Below are positions 189-11,576 of a stretch of DNA of 32,468 nucleotides, piece after piece (position 1 is the stretch's first letter; each line of letters opens with the position of its first letter). Made by a program: the position numbers and the translations under genes. This DNA comes from Bacilli bacterium (GTDB lineage: Bacteria; Bacillota_I; Bacilli_A; RF39; UBA660): the NCBI GenBank assembly GCA_028709545.1, contig JAQVWT010000007.1, positions 1 through 32,468 on the forward strand, in the 5' to 3' direction. The notes under the pieces were generated by a model, which had not been told where the DNA came from, did no database searches, and worked only from the letters and a program-made list of their open reading frames with translations.

Positions 189-2819
189 ATGAAAACAACT
201 GCTAAACAATATAAAATATATTTAATAATTGGCATAATGGTTTTATTTGCTGCTATCTTTAGTGCTACTTATGCAGTATTTAGAAAAAGCTCATCGCAAA
301 CAAGTGATAATATGATTAGTACTTTAGATTGTATTGATATTTCTATAACTGGTAATACAGATGCTTTATCATTAACTAGTTATCCAATGACAGATATCGA
401 AGGATCAACTCAGCTTCCATATCGTTTTACTGTTCAAAATAACTGTAGTACATATGTTGAATATCAAATAATAATGTCAGTTGAACAATCTTCAACCATT
501 ACAAACAAAGAATATATAAAAATAGATTTAGCTGGCTTAAAATCAAATAAAAGAGTACTACTTAGTGAGCTTACCGAAGAACCACAACCAGCTCTAACTG
601 GTTATAAAAATAACTATACACTCCTTTCTAATTCATTTAGTGGCGAAGAAAGTCATGTCTATAACTTTAGAATGTGGTTAAGTGGAGAGAATGAAAACAT
701 CTGGACCGATGAAACAATAATAGACCAAACCTTATCAGTAAGATTATCTATTATAGGAGTTACAAAAACCGAACCAAGTGATCTTTTAAATGAGAGAATA
801 CTTGCTCAAGGTGGAGGAAAAGTGGCAATTGAGGCCAAAGGAGACCCTGATTTTTCCAAAATAGCTACTTTAGATGATACAGGACTATATGCAGCCGAAG
901 ATGAGTATGGAACTTCTTATTATTATCGGGGAACCAAAGAATTAAATAATAATTTAATTTGGGGAGGCTTCCAGTGGAAGATAGTCAGAATTAATGGCGA
1001 TGGCTCAATAAGACTTCTATATAATGGCACAGAGGCTCAGTTTAATACAAATGGCACAATGAATGATACTGGAGAAGATACTCAAATAGAAGGAACTTCT
1101 AAATTTAATTCAAACCATGCTGATGCAAAATATGTCGGCTATATGTATGGCGGCGCAGTTGGAGAGCACTCTACACAAAGATTTGGGGAAATCTCAGCTG
1201 CCGCAACATATAATGAGACAAACAGTACAATAAAAGATGAACTAGATGATTGGTATGAGGCTAATATATTAGATAAACCATTTGAAACAGATGTTGCCAA
1301 CAATTTATTTTGTAATGACCGCCAGCTTAAAAGCGAGGTTAGCGGAGAAGCTACAGGCCCTGGTTATGGATATACCGCGGAGTCGGGTTATGCCTCGGAT
1401 TATCGATTATACACAAATAAAAAACCAACCTTAAAATGTGGATTAAAAAACGATCGATTTACTACAAGTGCTGATTCTATAATAGGAAATGGTGTCTTAA
1501 CTTATTCAGTAGGATTATTAACAGCTGACGAAGCATCAATGGCTGGATTAGTATATAATACAAATAATAATACTACCAATTATTTATATACCAATCAGAG
1601 TTGGTGGTCGTTTTCGCCGTACTATATGTTCTGCCCGTTTGCTTATTGTACTGCCCGCATGTTGATCGTTAATTCTTCTGGTCACCTGTATATGGACTGG
1701 ACGATTATGCCCCATGGGTCTCGCCCCTCAGTTTCTTTAATATCTGGGGTTCGAGCAACTGGCGAGGGTAGTGCAGCCGATCCATTTGTAGTAGTCACTG
1801 CGCCAACTTTAGGCGAAGCAATACTAGCTCAAGAGGTTGGTGGACCAGCAATGATAGAAGCAAAAGCAACCCCTGATTTTTCTAAAATAGCCACTTCAGA
1901 ATATGCGGGACTATATGCTGCACCAGATGAATATGGTATGTCCTATTATTATCGGGGAACCAAAGAATTAAATAATAACTTAATTTGGGGAGGTTTTCAG
2001 TGGAAAATCGTCAGAATCAATGGTGATGGATCAATAAGACTTGTTTATAACGGAACACAAGCTCAGTTTATCTCAAAAAGTTCTGTGAATGATACTGGAG
2101 AAGATACTCAAATTGGAACTTCTAGATTTAATTCAGCTATTTATGATGCCAAATATGTCGGTTATATGTATGGTGGATTAGAAGGAGAAGCATCTACGCA
2201 AAGAAACGGGTTAACTTCGGCTGCGGCATCTTATAATGAAACATCAAGCACGATAAAAGGAATACTAGATACATGGTATAAGACTAATATATTTGATCAA
2301 GGCTTAGGATCTCAGGTTGTCGATAATCTATTTTGTAACGATCGACAACTTCAAAGTGAAGTGGGGGGAGATGCAACAGGCCCAGGATATGGTGCATGTT
2401 ATTTAAAATGCGTGACCCATTACGCCGCATCTTACCGTATAATTGAAAATAAAACACCAACATTAAAATGTGACCTTAAGAATGATCGATTTACCACAGG
2501 TACAGATATAGAATTAGGAAATGGGTCTCTTACTTATCCGGTCGGATTATTAACATCTGATGAGGCATCAATGGCAGGCTTAGTACATAATACAAATAAT
2601 ACTACCAATTATTTATATACCAATCATGATTGGTGGTTGCTTACGCCGGACTACGTGGACCCGAATGGTTATGCACACGGGTGGCACATTGATTTGTCTG
2701 GTAAACTTTACGACCACTGGGCAAATTACCTCTATGGGGCTCGCCCGTCAGTTTCTTTAATATCTGGGGTTCGAGTAACCGGAATAGGCAGTGCAAACGA
2801 TCCTTTCAAGGCACTTTAA
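189..2819 (+). CDS. TasA/camelysin-like N-terminus followed by two tandem C-type-lectin-like modules; putative DGR target with two variable regions
   Basis: N-terminal hydrophobic helix ending ...SATYAVF (SipW-type signal); two homologous modules (ILAQ-GG..AIEAK..PDFSKIA..YYYRGTKELNNNLIWGGFQWKIVRINGDGSIRL...RPSVSLISGVR.TG.GSA.DPF). Confidence 0.85.
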   Translation: MKTTAKQYKIYLIIGIMVLFAAIFSATYAVFRKSSSQTSDNMISTLDCIDISITGNTDALSLTSYPMTDIEGSTQLPYRFTVQNNCSTYVEYQIIMSVEQSSTITNKEYIKIDLAGLKSNKRVLLSELTEEPQPALTGYKNNYTLLSNSFSGEESHVYNFRMWLSGENENIWTDETIIDQTLSVRLSIIGVTKTEPSDLLNERILAQGGGKVAIEAKGDPDFSKIATLDDTGLYAAEDEYGTSYYYRGTKELNNNLIWGGFQWKIVRINGDGSIRLLYNGTEAQFNTNGTMNDTGEDTQIEGTSKFNSNHADAKYVGYMYGGAVGEHSTQRFGEISAAATYNETNSTIKDELDDWYEANILDKPFETDVANNLFCNDRQLKSEVSGEATGPGYGYTAESGYASDYRLYTNKKPTLKCGLKNDRFTTSADSIIGNGVLTYSVGLLTADEASMAGLVYNTNNNTTNYLYTNQSWWSFSPYYMFCPFAYCTARMLIVNSSGHLYMDWTIMPHGSRPSVSLISGVRATGEGSAADPFVVVTAPTLGEAILAQEVGGPAMIEAKATPDFSKIATSEYAGLYAAPDEYGMSYYYRGTKELNNNLIWGGFQWKIVRINGDGSIRLVYNGTQAQFISKSSVNDTGEDTQIGTSRFNSAIYDAKYVGYMYGGLEGEASTQRNGLTSAAASYNETSSTIKGILDTWYKTNIFDQGLGSQVVDNLFCNDRQLQSEVGGDATGPGYGACYLKCVTHYAASYRIIENKTPTLKCDLKNDRFTTGTDIELGNGSLTYPVGLLTSDEASMAGLVHNTNNTTNYLYTNHDWWLLTPDYVDPNGYAHGWHIDLSGKLYDHWANYLYGARPSVSLISGVRVTGIGSANDPFKAL
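1602..1755 (+). other. Putative DGR variable region 1 (internal)
   Basis: Codons 1608-1721: no codon ends in A (38 codons, hand count) in an AT-rich gene; many NNC/NNG codons; identical flanks shared with VR2 (AATACTACCAATTATTTATATACCAATCA upstream; TCAGTTTCTTTAATATCTGGGGTTCGAG downstream). Confidence 0.7.
2631..2775 (+). other. Putative DGR variable region 2 (C-terminal)
   Basis: Same framework as VR1 with divergent core WWLLTPDYVDPNGYAHGWHIDLSGKLYDHWANYLYGARPSVSL; GC-rich, third-position A rare. Confidence 0.7.
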
Positions 2820-2913: not shown

Positions 2914-2943
2914 ATAGCCATTCAAAAGGAGAGGGTTTTGATT

Positions 2944-4830
2944 ATGAAAAAGAAAATATTCTTGATAATTACAGGCATCTTATGTTTATTTGGTTTTACG
3001 TTTAATGCTGAAGCTGCACCTAGCACTATTAATGCTGGAAGCATGACTCGTATTACTGATTATGTCGAAGGAGTTCCTGCTTGGGTAAAGACTACTAGTA
3101 ATTTAAGTCACTATTTGTATTGTGAAGTTGCTAATTTAACTTTCCCAAGTAATAAAACATTGACACTAGGAACAGAAGTCGATAAAGGGTTTATTTATAT
3201 TTTAAATAATAAACCAAATACTGGTAATAGCGATAAAGACTATTATATTAAGCAAATAGCTGTTTGGTGGTATAAGGATGTTCTTGCTGGAGGAAATGCT
3301 AATATTTCAGCTAGCACTAAAACATATTGTACTAATAATAGATATACTCATGATGTATGTGGTAAAATATATAACTTAGTAGAAGGTGCAAAAAAACATA
3401 AAGTTGTAAAAGGTGTAATGAGTTTTGACGAAAACAATGTTAAATTTAGTGAAAGTAGTGGATACTATGTATCTGATAAGATTAGTTTCACTTCTTCAAA
3501 TTTAACTTCTTTAGGTAGTTTAAAATTAGTTAATGCACCAGCTGGTTCAATTATTGTTAATAGTACTATAAATTCAACTAATAAAGCAGGAACATTTAAA
3601 ATAAAAGTTCCAATAAGTTCGGTAAGATCAGGAGAAACTATTGAGTTTTCAGTTGAAGTAGATGGAAACTACAATACTTATTCTGTTTATGATTATTTAT
3701 ATACTGCAGCTTATCAAAGAGTTATTTATGATAAAGTATATGTTAATAATCATCCACTAAGAGCATCTAAAATATTTAAAATTACTAAAGCAAGTATTCC
3801 AAATGATACTAACTTATTAACTATTTATAAAGTTGATCAAGATGGAAACTCTTTAAAAAATGCTACTTTAACACTTTATAGAGGAAATTGTTTAAATTCT
3901 ACTTGTTATAGTAGTGATATATATACAACTTGGAAAACAACTACTAATCCAACAATATTTACTAATATTCCAACTGGTTATTATACAATTGTTGAAACCA
4001 GTACGCCAGTAGGATATACTACAGCACCTAAAGGATTAATTCGTGTTAGATATTCAGATGAAAGTTATTATCATACAGTAGTAAATGTTAAAGATACTGA
4101 AGTAAATCCTGTTAGAATAAGTAAAACTGATGTAATTAGTAAAAATGAAATTGCTGGAGCAACATTAGTTATTAAAGATTCTAATAATAATGAGGTAGTT
4201 TCATGGGTAAGTACTAATTCACCTAAATACTTAACTTTAGCTGAAGGAGAATATACTTTAGTTGAAAAATATGCACCGGCTGGTTATAAATTAACTACAA
4301 ATGATATTGATTTTAAAGTTGATGAAGTAGGTAATGTTATGGTTAAATCTAGTGCTGGAAAATATGTATCTACTCAATATATAAATATAGTTAATGAAAA
4401 AACTGATACTATAAATATTAGTAAACTAGATAAAAGCACTAATAATTATTTAACTGGAGCAACGCTTAGAATTAAAAATGAAAAGGGAGAAATTGTCACT
4501 ACTTGGGTAACAACTGGAGAAAGTTATAACACTTTATTAAGTAAAGGGGATTATACGCTAGAAGAGATATCAGCTCCAACTGGATATGATCTAAATAAAG
4601 AAGTTGTTTATTTTAGAGTATTAGAAGATGGAACACTGCTGATAAGAAATAATAGCGGAGTATATGAACTTGCTAACGGAATAATTGTTTATAATATGCC
4701 AGTTCTAGAAGAAGAAACTGTTATTGTACCGAAAACAGGCTTAACAAGTATACTTACTTATACTTTCGGAACACTAACTTTAGCAAGTGGTGCCTATTTA
4801 TTAAAGAAAAATGGACAATTTAGTATCTAA
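2944..4830 (+). CDS. LPXTG-type surface/pilin-like protein with N-terminal thioester-like domain and Cna-B (SpaA-type) repeats
   Basis: Signal peptide MKKKIFLIITGILCLFGFTFNAEA; YLYC ... KQIAVWWY (thioester-domain-like); repeated GATL.IK....YTL.E..AP.GY modules; C-terminal VPKTG + hydrophobic helix + KK. RBS GGAGAGGG suggests start at 2944 rather than 2938. Confidence 0.85.
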   Translation: MKKKIFLIITGILCLFGFTFNAEAAPSTINAGSMTRITDYVEGVPAWVKTTSNLSHYLYCEVANLTFPSNKTLTLGTEVDKGFIYILNNKPNTGNSDKDYYIKQIAVWWYKDVLAGGNANISASTKTYCTNNRYTHDVCGKIYNLVEGAKKHKVVKGVMSFDENNVKFSESSGYYVSDKISFTSSNLTSLGSLKLVNAPAGSIIVNSTINSTNKAGTFKIKVPISSVRSGETIEFSVEVDGNYNTYSVYDYLYTAAYQRVIYDKVYVNNHPLRASKIFKITKASIPNDTNLLTIYKVDQDGNSLKNATLTLYRGNCLNSTCYSSDIYTTWKTTTNPTIFTNIPTGYYTIVETSTPVGYTTAPKGLIRVRYSDESYYHTVVNVKDTEVNPVRISKTDVISKNEIAGATLVIKDSNNNEVVSWVSTNSPKYLTLAEGEYTLVEKYAPAGYKLTTNDIDFKVDEVGNVMVKSSAGKYVSTQYINIVNEKTDTINISKLDKSTNNYLTGATLRIKNEKGEIVTTWVTTGESYNTLLSKGDYTLEEISAPTGYDLNKEVVYFRVLEDGTLLIRNNSGVYELANGIIVYNMPVLEEETVIVPKTGLTSILTYTFGTLTLASGAYLLKKNGQFSI

Positions 4831-5500
4831 AAGAAAAATAAAAGTAACACTTGGAGTGCTTATAACATTTATTGGTTTATGTATTATATCAAGTACTTAT
4901 TTTAAAGAAAAGAAATTTGAAGTATTTGATGAAATGAATGAATTATATTATGAACAGATAGTTGAATTAGCTAATATACCAGAAGAGATAGATACTCTAG
5001 AATTACCAGAGGAGATAGATACTCCAGTAATAGAAGACCCAGAAGAAATAATTGAGGCTGTAGAGACAGTAGTACCTGTACCTGCACCAGTAATTGATTA
5101 TTCAAAATATTATATTGGTTATTTATCAATTCCAAAAATAAATTTAAAAAAAGGTTTTACAGAAATTAATAGTAAATATAATAATGTTAATCGTAATATT
5201 GAAATTATTAAACCATCTAAATATCCTGATGTTTCTAAAAGTAATTTAATTATTGCTAGTCATTCAGGAAGTAGTTCTGTATCATTTTTTAAAGACTTAT
5301 ATAAATTAAAACTTGAGGATGATGTATTTATAACTTATAATGGTACTGAATATAAATATAAAATAAAAAACATTTATACTGATTTAAAAGACGGTGATGT
5401 TGTTATTAAAAGAAATAAAGATATAACAACACTAACACTTATTACATGTACTAAAGGGGATAAAAACACACAAACTATATATATTTGTGAACTAGTTTAA
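4811..5500 (+). CDS. Sortase family protein, overlapping the 3' end of its likely substrate gene
   Basis: N-terminal TM; YIGYLSIPKINL, ASHSG (catalytic His), TLITCTK (catalytic Cys). Confidence 0.85.
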   Translation: MDNLVSKRKIKVTLGVLITFIGLCIISSTYFKEKKFEVFDEMNELYYEQIVELANIPEEIDTLELPEEIDTPVIEDPEEIIEAVETVVPVPAPVIDYSKYYIGYLSIPKINLKKGFTEINSKYNNVNRNIEIIKPSKYPDVSKSNLIIASHSGSSSVSFFKDLYKLKLEDDVFITYNGTEYKYKIKNIYTDLKDGDVVIKRNKDITTLTLITCTKGDKNTQTIYICELV

Positions 5501-5517
5501 AAAAGAATAAAAAGGAC

Positions 5518-5604
5518 AAAAGAGGTGATGATTATGGTAGAGTATACTCTCCTAGAAAAGATTAAAACAGTTTTTAATCTTATATATACATCACCTCTTT
5601 TTTT
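5518..5604 (+). promoter_or_regulatory. Structured element across the RBS/start: 13-bp perfect inverted repeat enclosing two further palindromes, ending in T7
   Basis: AAAAGAGGTGATG (5518-5530) / CATCACCTCTTTT (5589-5601); inner AGAGTATACTCT (5539-5550) and AAGATTAAAA-CAGT-TTTTAATCTT (5558-5581); T-run 5598-5604. Confidence 0.6.
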
Positions 5605-6256
5605 GATTTTACTTTTAGGAATATCTTTAATGGTAATAGATATATTATTTATTTCTAAAAAGGATTCTAAAACAAAAATTGTTTATGGGATAGTATCAAT
5701 TATCTTAATATTCTTCTTTATGTATTCTTATTTAGAATCACTGCTTAGTATCTTTGATACAATAGCTAAAAATATAGTGGCAATTATCTATTTTCCATCA
5801 GTACTTGAATATATATTAATGCTTCTTATTAGTTTAATAATATTAATTGTTAGTGTTGTTAGTAAGAAGATGAATAAAACAGTTAAAAGAATTAACTTAT
5901 TTGTTTTAATTATAAATAGTTTTCTCTTTTTTCTAATTTTAGATCAAATAGCTAAAAGTAATGTTGATTTAACCAATAAAATAAGTATTTATACTAATAG
6001 TACCTTAATGATGCTTTTAGAATTAAGTATAATTATCTTTGTGATTTGGATTACTTTCTTAATATTATATAAAATAATAAAAGCTTTTTTACCAAAAGAA
6101 AATTTAGAAACTTCTAATATAATATTAGATTTTCCAAAAACTATTGAAGAAGTAAAAAAAACAGAGAAAGAAGAAATGTTTACTTTAAAAGAATATCGTC
6201 AGATGAAAGTTTTGCTTGAGTCTATGAAAGAAAATGAAAGCGAAGAAAATAGCTAA
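5534..6256 (+). CDS. Hypothetical multi-pass membrane protein
   Basis: ORF with AGAGG 8 nt before ATG 5534 (track starts at GTG 5525); several hydrophobic helices, acidic C-terminal tail. Confidence 0.7.
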   Translation: MVEYTLLEKIKTVFNLIYTSPLFLILLLGISLMVIDILFISKKDSKTKIVYGIVSIILIFFFMYSYLESLLSIFDTIAKNIVAIIYFPSVLEYILMLLISLIILIVSVVSKKMNKTVKRINLFVLIINSFLFFLILDQIAKSNVDLTNKISIYTNSTLMMLLELSIIIFVIWITFLILYKIIKAFLPKENLETSNIILDFPKTIEEVKKTEKEEMFTLKEYRQMKVLLESMKENESEENS

Positions 6257-6272
6257 TAAAATAGCTATTTTT
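6246..6272. terminator. Terminator between convergent genes
   Basis: AAAATAGCTA-ATAAAA-TAGCTATTTT, T-rich tail. Confidence 0.75.
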
Positions 6273-6276
6273 AAAT

Positions 6277-7923
6277 TTAATCAACTATTAATTTAGCATG
6301 AACAACTAATCGATCTTGTCCTCGGTTATCACAAGTAGATAACGTTAATATCTTATCATTAGTAGTAATATTTTGATTAAAATTATAAACACTTCTTCCA
6401 ACTATTAGATCTAAGAAATTTTGATAATCTTCTTTAGTATAAAAAGAGGTTGTTAAATAATCAGTTGTATTAGGAATTTTATAAATAGATATTATTTGCC
6501 ATTTATACGCAGAATTTATAGTGTTAAAAGTAATTACTTGATTATTTGTTTTAGCGTGCCATGAACTATTCATCGTATATCTAAGAGTTCCAAACATAAT
6601 ACCAGCAGTTATATTATGTCCATATATTATTGTATTTTGATTTAAAACATCAATACTATTTCGGTAGTCCATAAATATCCAACCCATAGAGTTTTTATAA
6701 CTATTATAATCTCTATTTAGATAATATTCATTATCAGTAGCTTGTACTACTGGATAATCAATTCTCGTATTATTAACTGTCAGCCAACCCTTAGTATCAC
6801 TATTTATTTTAAGTAAGGTATCAAAAACCTTATCATAATTTTTATAATAAGAACTAACATAATTACTTTTAGTAGTAGTAGTGTCTTTTGGAACCACTCC
6901 ATCTATATAATCATATTCAGGATCTTGATCATTAAAATCATATTCATCATCAATTTGTTTAATAATATTCTTAAGTTCAGCTTCTATCTTTTTTATATCA
7001 CTTGCTTGAGTATAGTTTTTATAATAATTAAGCCCCATTAAAGTAAGACTTAAAATAATAACTCCTAAAATACATATTTTTATAAAATTTAAATTAATTT
7101 GTTTAAACAAATTTTTCCTTTTAAATTCTAAACTATAATTTATTTTAAATTTAATATTATTCTCTTTAAAATATTTATCATAATCAAGTTTAATATTATT
7201 TAAAGAATGATATATATCATTTAAGTTATTTCCTTCTTCTAATATCACAATTTTAATATTAACTTTATTATTATCAGATAATAATTTAATAATATATTTT
7301 AAGACAGAACTAGAAAATTTATTTAAATAAATTACTTTTAAATAATTATTAATATTAATAAATATTTCAAAATCATTAATATCTTCTTCAGTAAATAGAT
7401 TATTGATATTAATACTTTTTTTATAATAAATATCACTATAAGTAATAAGATTATTACTACTCATAAACTGACTAATAAAAAATATTTCCGTTCTCGTTTT
7501 AACTACTAAATTTTTATTTAAATCAAGACGTTCTAATAAATACTTAGGTATATCATAAACTTCTAATACTTTAAGGTATTTATTTTCAAGCAGCTCCATA
7601 AATATTTTATAATTAACTTGTTTATCAGGCTTGATATATAACTCTTCAATTGAAGGTATCTCATTAATTATTTTAATAATTAGTGATATTATCGAATAAT
7701 CTCTAATACTTACCTTATTAACTTCTCTTTTAATAATTACAACATTTAAAAATGAAGATACTAAATCTAAATTATCTATTATATAATCTTTACTAAAGAC
7801 AAGTTCTTTAGTATCAATTATATTCGTATTATTTAAATTCTCTTTAATAGTATCTTTTTTTAAAATTGATACAACTAATAAGTTTCTGGTTATTTTAAAC
7901 ATTATTTTATCCAAATATATCAC
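6277..7923 (-). CDS. Class B-like sortase with long N-terminal domain of unknown function and one internal TM helix
   Basis: C-terminal KINSDTKGWLTVNNTRIDYPVVQ..DNEYYLNRDY...GWIFMDYRN...IIYGHN...LTLSTCDNRGQDRLVVHAKL; TM near LNFIKICILGVIILSLTLMGL; ~280 aa before the TM unrelated to sortase. Confidence 0.85.
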   Translation of the reverse strand: MIYLDKIMFKITRNLLVVSILKKDTIKENLNNTNIIDTKELVFSKDYIIDNLDLVSSFLNVVIIKREVNKVSIRDYSIISLIIKIINEIPSIEELYIKPDKQVNYKIFMELLENKYLKVLEVYDIPKYLLERLDLNKNLVVKTRTEIFFISQFMSSNNLITYSDIYYKKSININNLFTEEDINDFEIFININNYLKVIYLNKFSSSVLKYIIKLLSDNNKVNIKIVILEEGNNLNDIYHSLNNIKLDYDKYFKENNIKFKINYSLEFKRKNLFKQINLNFIKICILGVIILSLTLMGLNYYKNYTQASDIKKIEAELKNIIKQIDDEYDFNDQDPEYDYIDGVVPKDTTTTKSNYVSSYYKNYDKVFDTLLKINSDTKGWLTVNNTRIDYPVVQATDNEYYLNRDYNSYKNSMGWIFMDYRNSIDVLNQNTIIYGHNITAGIMFGTLRYTMNSSWHAKTNNQVITFNTINSAYKWQIISIYKIPNTTDYLTTSFYTKEDYQNFLDLIVGRSVYNFNQNITTNDKILTLSTCDNRGQDRLVVHAKLIVD

Positions 7924-8055: not shown

Positions 8056-9836
8056 ATGCAGAAAAAAAACATTGTTTTATCAGCAGTACTAAGTATAGCA
8101 ATATTATTACTTATAACAATCGGGCTATCTTTTGCCTATTTTACTGCAAATATAACTGGTAGTGAAGAAACAACTACAATTACAGCTAAAGGTGGTAAAA
8201 TGCTTATTACTTTTAGTGGTGGAAGTGAAGTTGATGTTGATACTCTTGAACCAAGTAGTACTCCATTTGGAACTAAAACATTTACTGTAACCGGATTTAA
8301 TAATACTAATACACCAATGGGTTATAAAATAAGTTTAGTAATAGAAGAAAATACATTCTCAGAAAACGCTATTCAATATAAATTGATAAGCACTAATAAT
8401 GATAATAGTGGAAATGTAGCTACATCTATTAATGTACTTACTAATATAAGAAGTGGTGAAGGAACTTATACTTTAGGTTATGGAAATTTCGAAGTACCAA
8501 CTGATGCTAATAAAACTCATACCTATAACTTAGAACTATAATCAAAATGTGAATCAAGAAAAAGAAATCAAAGCCCATGTTATAGTAGAAAACTTTGATT
8601 ACGATAGTCTTCCTTATAATGAATCAAAAGGCGTAAATAGACCAGTCTTATTTACGGGCATGACTCCAGTCAAGTGGGATGATGAATTTAAGGAAATAGA
8701 AACAACAAAAAAAGACTCTGGCTGGTATGATTATAACAATAAAAAATGGGCGAATGCAAAAACATCTGATGGCTCATACTGGGTCTGGATACCCAGATAT
8801 GCTTATAAAATAACTGACGGTTATTACTCAAATGAAACTGGCACAATCGATATTAAATTTTTAAGAGAAGAAACAAGTGTAAGTGCAGGAAATACTATAA
8901 TAGAAACCACCGGATACAATCCCGGTGTTAAAGATACTTCAATGCATCACTTCCTTCATCCAGCATTTGACGTTGAAGGTTCAGAACTTGGGTTTTGGGT
9001 GGCTAAGTATGAGCCAACTGCTGCCGAAGGAGTTGCCACAATAACTGGCGACTGTGATCCAGCTGATGACGTGTCAACTAAAACAATTAAGGTAATGCCA
9101 AAGGCGATGTATAACTAACAGTAATGCCTTTGATGCTATATTAAGCATGAAAAATAATCCAGTCTATGGATGGGAACCAGAGGAAGTAGATCCACACATG
9201 CTCACCAACCTCGAGTGGGGAGCAGTAGCATACTTATCTAAGTCAATATCCGGAGCCGATACTGAGGAAATATGGAATAATGCATTTTATAAGTATCGCA
9301 CAGGCTGCTCCGGAACTGAAGTTGATGCTGCAAGTGAAAAAACATGCGTAGAATATAATACTCTAAATGGTCAAAAAGCCAGTACTACTCATAATATATA
9401 TGGCGTATATGACATGAGTGGTGGATCATGGGATAGAGTAATGGGTAATTACAATAACTTACCTACCACTAATACAAGTGGGTTTACAGAAGAAACATTA
9501 TTAAATATAAATTCAAAATATATAAATAGATATTTCACAAAAACAGAGGATTTACTCGGTGGTGTTGGAATGGCATATGATACTAATATTTATGGAGATG
9601 CCGTATATGAAACCAGTTACGATGCTGCTAGACATAATGGGTCAAGCTGGGAAGGAACAACAGCTGGTAGCTGGTACGGAGATGCTAGCTACTTACCGCA
9701 AGCCTCAGGTCCTTGGTTCTATCGAGGGGGCGACTCAGGTAATAACACCAATGCAGGACTGTTTAACTTCAGCAACAGCCGTGGGTGTGCTGATATATAT
9801 TACTCGTTTCGTCCTGGGCTGCGGCTAGCGTCTTAA
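8056..9836 (+). pseudogene. Frameshifted TasA-like + FGE-sulfatase-type C-type-lectin protein (DGR target), split over ORFs 8056-8541, 8549-9118 and 9147-9836
   Basis: Three consecutive ORFs in frames 1, 2, 0 read as one protein: ...THTYNLEL / (YNQNV)NQEKEIKAHVIVEN... / ...KVMP / ..NAFDAILSMKNNPVYGWEPEEVDPHMLTNLEWGAVAYLS...GVYDMSGG...WFYRGG...SFRPGLRLAS. The intact 10029 gene confirms the first junction should be continuous. Confidence 0.75.
9708..9833 (+). other. Putative DGR variable region 3 (FGE/CLec type)
   Basis: GPWFYRGGDSGNNTNAGLFNFSNSRGCADIYYSFRPGLRLAS; AAC/AAT/AGC-rich codons in a GC-elevated stretch at the C-terminus. Confidence 0.75.
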
Positions 9837-10028: not shown

Positions 10029-11576
10029 ATGAAACAAAAAAAAGATATACTAATTTTAGTAAGTGGTTTATTAATTATATTATTAGTAATTATTGGGGTA
10101 TCATATGCTTATTTTACTGCAAATATAACTGGTGGAGATGAGTCAACTACTATTGAAGTAAAGGGTGGTAGAATGACTATTATTTATGATGGTGGAGATG
10201 ATATTGATATTACTAATATCCTTCCCAGTAATAATCCAGTCGCTATTAAAAGATTTACTGTAACTGGTTTTAATAATACCAAAGTACCAATGGCATATAA
10301 AATGAGTTTAGTGGTTGAAAAAAATGATTTTTCAAGTGAGGCTTTAAAATATAAGTTAATTAGTGAGAATACCGATAATAATGGATTGGTGCTTCCGAGT
10401 ATAACAACATTAACAAAGATTCCTTCTGGAGCTAGCACTATTGAGCTAGGAACAGGGTCTTTTGAAGTACCAACTGACGGTAATAAAACTCATACATACG
10501 ATTTAGAAATATATTTTCCAAATGAGGATTATGATCAAAATATTGAACAAGATAAACAAATAGCAGCATATATTTTAACTGAAAACTATAATCCACCGCC
10601 GTTATTAAGTGATTTAATTTTAGCCCAAGGTGGAGGAGCAGAGGCGATTGAAGCTAAAGGAAAACCATTATTTAGTGTTATAAATGGTATAAGTGGAATA
10701 TATGCTGATTCTGATGAATATGGCACTTCATATTACTACCGCGGAATAAAGGATGAGCTTAATAATAATTTAATTTGGGGAGGATTCCAGTGGAAGATAG
10801 TCAGAATAAATGGTGATGGTTCTATTAGACTTATTTATAATGGGACAGAAGCTCAGTTTACTACCAATGGTGTAGTAAATGATGGAAGCACCGATACGCA
10901 AATTGGCACATCAGCATTTAATACAACAAATAATGATGATGCTAAATATGTTGGATATATGTATGGAGGACTAAATGGAGTAGCCTCTACCCAAAGAGAT
11001 GGTACGGTATCAAAAGCTGCAACTTATAACGAAACTTCTCCAGAAATTAAAAACATAATCGATAACTGGTATTCAACCAATATCTCAGGAAAAGAAATTG
11101 AAAATAATATAGTAGATAATTTGTTTTGTAATGATAGGCAAAGTAGTACTGGAACTGGGTATGGTAAATCTGCAACTGACTATCAAGGATTAGTGCGTTT
11201 AAATACTCAAAAAAATCCAACTTTAAAATGTGGAATTAAAAATGATTGCTTTACAGTAGCAGACACAGTTATCGGAAATGGAAATCTTACATACCCAGTT
11301 GGTCTAATTACTGCAGATGAGGCATCAATGGCAGGGTTAGTTAGAAGTTTGGGAGGAGAAAACAATTATTTACTCACTGATGAGGGATTTTGGACAATGA
11401 CTCCTTATCAAATGTATTCAAGTGGAAGTTCATATGCTAATATTTATCTTATTTCTGGTGCTCTAGCTCTTCATACTGCTGAGATGATTCGGGGAGTAAG
11501 ACCAGTAGTTTCTATCTTTGCTGATGCCCGAGTCCAAGGAACTGGTACGGCTAGTGATCCATTTGTCGCATCTTGA
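10029..11576 (+). CDS. TasA-like N-terminus + single C-type-lectin-like module
   Basis: N-terminus IVIIGVSYAYFTANITGGDESTTIEVKGG matches the 8056 protein; C-terminal module matches the two modules of 189-2819. Confidence 0.85.
   Translation: MKQKKDILILVSGLLIILLVIIGVSYAYFTANITGGDESTTIEVKGGRMTIIYDGGDDIDITNILPSNNPVAIKRFTVTGFNNTKVPMAYKMSLVVEKNDFSSEALKYKLISENTDNNGLVLPSITTLTKIPSGASTIELGTGSFEVPTDGNKTHTYDLEIYFPNEDYDQNIEQDKQIAAYILTENYNPPPLLSDLILAQGGGAEAIEAKGKPLFSVINGISGIYADSDEYGTSYYYRGIKDELNNNLIWGGFQWKIVRINGDGSIRLIYNGTEAQFTTNGVVNDGSTDTQIGTSAFNTTNNDDAKYVGYMYGGLNGVASTQRDGTVSKAATYNETSPEIKNIIDNWYSTNISGKEIENNIVDNLFCNDRQSSTGTGYGKSATDYQGLVRLNTQKNPTLKCGIKNDCFTVADTVIGNGNLTYPVGLITADEASMAGLVRSLGGENNYLLTDEGFWTMTPYQMYSSGSSYANIYLISGALALHTAEMIRGVRPVVSIFADARVQGTGTASDPFVAS

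Follow-up and report, generated by a model that had tools for sequence, protein, structure and literature searches.

The presence of several variable regions (VRs) in a single DGR target protein has been documented in a few lineages. In Marichromatium purpuratum 984, three tandem FGE paralogues carry three VRs within one ORF (PMC3521204), and in Thiohalocapsa PB-PSB1 both DGR 4 and DGR 5 present three tandem CLec domains with VRs (PMC10907252). Similarly, among multi-VR DGRs, 31 of 271 hit a single ORF several times (PMC6642488). MutS-like proteins (MSL, PF01624) and Avd are known accessory proteins of such systems (PMC10053308). We describe here a protein of this kind encoded in the window, i.e., the whole stretch of 32,468 nucleotides that was analysed, which belongs to a 95.8%-complete MAG of 1.15 Mb in 80 contigs (G000; contigs cited below by a bare C-number are those of this assembly). 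Its two modules each contain a putative VR, one internal (VR1) and one C-terminal (VR2), and we hold it to be very probable that both are DGR variable regions, an estimate that includes a sizeable possibility, somewhat short of even, that no template serves them now.

A hydrophobic N-terminal segment opens the protein and is followed by a leader domain of about 200 aa and two homologous modules that are both DUF6273-like/C-type-lectin-like (Table 1). The ORF and the two segments singled out as variable in the initial annotation were found in place; the two cores diverge strongly from one another, and their difference of three codons is real (9 nt). The module scaffolds differ throughout (24% of nucleotides), with exact flanks common to both modules on either side of the cores; the downstream one measures 28 nt (1728-1755 = 2748-2775) as first described, whereas the upstream one extends over 32 nt (1566-1597 = 2595-2626) rather than about 29. 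These flanks alone are not exceptional, because module 1 and module 2 share other identical stretches of 35 and 28 nt.

Table 1. Position of the features discussed in the text (window coordinates; aa, residues of the tandem protein).
Feature	Position	Strand	Residues	Basis or remark
Tandem two-module protein, 876 aa	189..2819	+		ORF list; structure model; Foldseek DUF6273 matches
Module 1, internal	801..1793	+	aa 205-535	
VR1 core, putative internal variable region	1608..1727	+	aa 474-513	Homologous position to G004 proven VRs
28-nt 3' flank of VR1	1728..1755	+		Identical to that of VR2; candidate IMH side
Module 2, C-terminal	1836..2816	+	aa 550-876	
VR2 core, putative C-terminal variable region	2637..2747	+	aa 817-853	
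28-nt 3' flank of VR2	2748..2775	+		Identical to 1728-1755
Diverged VR of a second target family (PWFxRGG...SFRPG)	9695..9831	+		Homologous to C63 TR (other contig)
Single-module paralogue	10029..11576	+		Core ~11394-11498 without DGR codon signature (third-position A 8/35, GC3 0.14)

Profile searches with Pfam and NCBIfam gave no match for the protein. Its fold was predicted from 33 sequences with a mean pLDDT of 88 (pTM 0.90). The best Foldseek matches of this confident model were viral DUF6273 proteins (E 1e-5 to 1e-4, TM 0.35-0.53), and true C-type lectins appeared only as weak matches of low probability. No relatives were found among the viral contigs searched. Downstream, at window positions 2938-7923, lie a pilin-like protein with SpaA repeats and an LPxTG-like end, as well as two sortase genes, adjoining the DGR-type targets. 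Given these neighbours, a cell-surface role of the tandem protein is likely, and the fold together with the sortase/SpaA neighbourhood suggests that it would bind a ligand at the surface.

The codon usage of both cores stands apart from that of the scaffold. Third-position A is absent from VR1 (0/38 codons) and rare in VR2 (3/35), against 38-39% in the scaffold (Fisher 8e-8 and 1.4e-4, respectively), exactly the depletion that had been counted by hand, and GC3 reaches 0.58 in VR1 and 0.57 in VR2 versus 0.23 and 0.21 in the scaffold. Differences between VR1 and VR2 are distributed 32:11 between codon positions 1+2 and position 3, against 85:91 in the scaffold (p=0.0016), with third-position divergence not reduced: 11 of 35 third positions differ (0.31), about the scaffold rate (0.37). 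It had also been argued that roughly half of the differing positions hold A in one copy. The count is right (10/20 in the 3' half of the core, 22/43 overall, for 109/176 in the scaffold) but it is no evidence, since two different random bases include A half the time.

The further proposal, that the adenines of one common template were replaced independently in both cores, is not supported: given these third-position differences and the 9-nt difference in length, a single template was not the recent source of both VR1 and VR2. The known TRs of the genus (n = 3) harbor A at 5/107 third positions, a frequency at which one shared template for VR1 and VR2 was rejected (P ~3e-7). The two cores would have been written from different or diverged templates, or would have aged since writing.

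The genome contains the machinery expected for such writing. Two DGR cassettes (MutS-like ORF, bAvd, RT and TR) are present, on C63 and C80, which answers positively, and twice, the initial call for a DGR-type RT. On C63, the order is TR, MutS_I-like ORF, bAvd and RT, the latter exhibiting the motifs IGNYTSQY and YMDD, the intact catalytic motif (RVT_1 E 2e-18). The C80 cassette consists of a target, MutS_I-like ORF, bAvd, RT, TR and a second target, and, compared with the G003:C58 orthologue, its RT (L002:1180-2157, minus strand) shows an in-frame deletion of 96 nt that removes the catalytic YxDD and leaves C63 as the only cassette with an intact RT catalytic motif. The bAvd profile PF22296 scores above its cut-off on C80 and below it on C63; DivGenRetAVD NF033474 matches the two Avd ORFs with E 2e-8 and 1e-11, below its cut-off. 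Mismatches between the C63 TR and a VR on C64 fall at TR A in 13 of 14 cases (p=1e-8), and those between the C80 TR and its two VRs in 15 of 17 (p=8e-8) and 16 of 20 (p=4e-7). The C80 RT thus lacks YxDD, yet the TR and two VRs beside it show adenine-specific mismatches. By HMM, the C-terminal part of the module is also recognised in the C80 DGR target (5.6e-6). In total, this genome contains about a dozen cores of VR type, belonging to three template families and mostly far from any RT, so that surveys limited to the vicinity of RTs miss most targets.

The second target family is also represented in the window, where an FGE-like DGR target gene (8056-9836) is split into three ORFs by stops near 8541 and 9118; the reading frame is interrupted upstream of its diverged VR. 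The homologue on C64 forms one intact frame and the copy on C71 is also interrupted. At the end of contig G000:C6 (L125:1430-1825), a leader resembling TR63 runs into a VR-like 3' part that is mutated, which may reflect recombination between a TR and a VR or a junction made during assembly; a second VR63-like 3' end is located at the contig terminus.

The link between the tandem protein and adenine-specific writing comes from G004, an 84%-complete MAG of a sister species in the same genus. Its contig C39 encodes an orthologue of 847 aa with an internal and a C-terminal VR, and a TR is located at G004:C32:5107-5221 (L120; contig JAQVZB010000032.1), downstream of a single-module target gene; no RT was found on this 11.4-kb contig nor in the 84%-complete MAG. 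The TR was compared with four VRs over their 3' part only (49-56 nt, hypergeometric p). Mismatches fell at template A in 11 of 11 cases over 56 nt for the internal VR of the tandem protein (2e-6), in 13 of 13 over 54 nt for its C-terminal VR (2e-7), in 14 of 14 for the VR on G004 C23 (4e-8) and in 9 of 11 for that on G004 C32 (2e-3). Upstream of the compared stretch, the VRs of this TR contain 11 nt that are missing from it, and the TR aligns poorly to VR1 and VR2. Since it matches both VRs of the orthologue, a single polypeptide with two DGR VRs, one of them internal, is demonstrated for this family, and VR1 and VR2 occupy positions homologous to VRs proven by A-only TR mismatches. The initial annotation had considered such an arrangement unusual; it is uncommon, but tandem proteins with an internal VR have been described before (PMC3521204, PMC10907252, PMC6642488). 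Tandem two-module proteins recur on several contigs and in several genomes of the genus (C70, G004:C39, G005:C44, L109, L111, L113).

The template repeat that was to be sought for VR1 and VR2 was not found in their own 95.8%-complete assembly. The search relied on blastn with VR1, the consensus of sibling VRs and the G004 TR, on IUPAC patterns and on a generic AAY-rich TR pattern. All blastn and pattern matches in the assembly corresponded to VRs and to the known C80 TR, neither the C63 TR nor the C80 TR matches VR1 or VR2, and when 60 kb surrounding the two RTs were scanned with VR1 and VR2, without gaps and tolerating changes at adenine, the only matches were A-rich and due to chance. No TR found in the assembly matched the template inferred from the sibling VRs either.

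The sibling modules on C32, C53 and C34 show the classic DGR signature. Between C32 and C53, all 20 differences in the core fall at codon positions 1 or 2, for a ratio of 49:58 (positions 1+2 : 3) in the scaffold (p=1e-6); under ordinary selection, about eight synonymous differences would be expected in the core (P of zero ~1e-4). A matching TR therefore existed recently, and as it is likewise absent from the assembly, a TR absent from the assembly does not mean a TR absent from the cell. GC3 amounts to 0.71-0.74 in the fresher VRs of C32, C53 and C34 versus 0.57-0.58 in VR1 and VR2, and third-position A rises to 6-7/35 in the tandem pair of C70. The single-module paralogue in the window, judged by its codons, may be decayed or a non-target. 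One genome thus exhibits a gradient of decay, from the fresh cores of C32, C53 and C34 through the intermediate VR1 and VR2 and the weak C70 pair to the 10029 ORF, where the signature is lost.

The explanation that we favor is a target family with a tandemly duplicated C-type-lectin-like module, in which each polypeptide would carry an internal and a C-terminal VR. Reverse transcription of the TR RNA would introduce errors at adenines, and the resulting cDNA would take the place of the VR in one module or the other (mutagenic retrohoming); a single secreted or surface protein would thereby display two binding patches, each randomised independently. The templates of VR1 and VR2 would differ from one another and be missing from, or lost by, the assembly. 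Adenine-specific TR/VR pairs are established for other targets of this genome and for both VRs of the G004 orthologue, and from the position and codon composition that VR1 and VR2 share with proven VRs we infer that such a system wrote them. The claim that both are VRs is supported in part, by the cassettes, the DGR-type composition and the orthology to proven VRs, and is weakened by the missing TR. Ordinary diversifying selection, or recombination with foreign alleles, could in principle have produced similar cores without any DGR, in agreement with the undiminished third-position divergence between VR1 and VR2 and with the fact that the position test alone needs no DGR. We regard this as improbable, as the depletion of third-position A and the high GC3 are confined to the core, the positional homology to the G004 VRs with their A-only mismatches is exact, the sibling cores differ 20:0 and DGR cassettes are present in the genome.

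A closer contender is that a DGR once wrote VR1 and VR2 but their TR has since been lost, so that they now undergo ordinary evolution, to which we give a little under an even chance; with regard to origin it is a sub-case of the favored explanation, with regard to present function a rival. Such retirement would fit the lack of a TR in a nearly complete assembly, the third-position divergence equal to that of the scaffold, the GC3 below that of C32, C53 and C34, the gradient of decay down to the C70 pair and the 10029 ORF, and the broken RT of C80. On the contrary, the total lack of third-position A in VR1, against 38% A at scaffold synonymous sites, argues against long amelioration, and the TR that recently wrote C32 and C53 is missing from the assembly as well. 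Lastly, the duplicated module might be an artefact of metagenome assembly, considering that the MAG is split into 80 contigs, that contigs C53 and C13, which overlap by 127 nt, both end precisely at a VR, and that the two modules of L109, covered at 2.7x, are for the most part identical. The scaffolds of the present modules differ throughout and the same tandem architecture is found on all the other contigs listed above, which makes a chimera extremely improbable. As to the contigs just cited, the overlap between G000:C53:1-127 and C13:1-127 is exact and covers one VR core, which makes the VR a branch point of the assembly graph. In L109:3217-5199, from a related MAG, the tandem modules including their VRs are mostly identical, by gene conversion or assembly artefact.

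More speculatively, and rather against the odds, double-module targets with two VRs independently written from different templates could be a standing architecture of the genus. These bivalent hypervariable receptors would depend on stand-alone TRs that reach about a dozen scattered targets in trans, and a single functional RT might work for several families of TR. The tandem architecture is common to several species of the genus, and the coexistence in a single genome of VRs that are fresh, older or decayed offers a way to date the loss of a VR's template.

Compared with DGRs of the BPP-1 type, this genome similarly has its own RT with the (I/V/L)GxxxSQ motif, bAvd, a TR adjoining the RT, C-type-lectin-like targets, and template-A mismatches in the C63-C64 and C80 pairs as well as in the G004 tandem protein. 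It departs from them by the TR of VR1 and VR2, which was not found in the assembly, by several targets remote from any RT, and by the G004 TR, which lies beside a target gene on an 11.4-kb contig where no RT was found. On C63, on C80 and in relatives, the RT comes after a stand-alone MutS_I-like ORF and bAvd, in line with the MSL and Avd accessory proteins (PMC10053308). As in the multi-VR DGRs that hit one ORF (PMC6642488), several VRs occur per target ORF, but no TR was found in the assembly for VR1 and VR2. A further likeness is with the Marichromatium and Thiohalocapsa targets, where tandem CLec modules in one polypeptide also have a VR each, some of them internal; those targets are of the vWA-CLec type (in conflict systems) or FGE-type, with TR and RT at the locus. 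To these few cases of several DGR VRs in one protein, the present locus adds a Bacilli lineage with a small genome of 1.15 Mb, in which the modules are DUF6273-like and encoded near sortase and SpaA-pilin genes.
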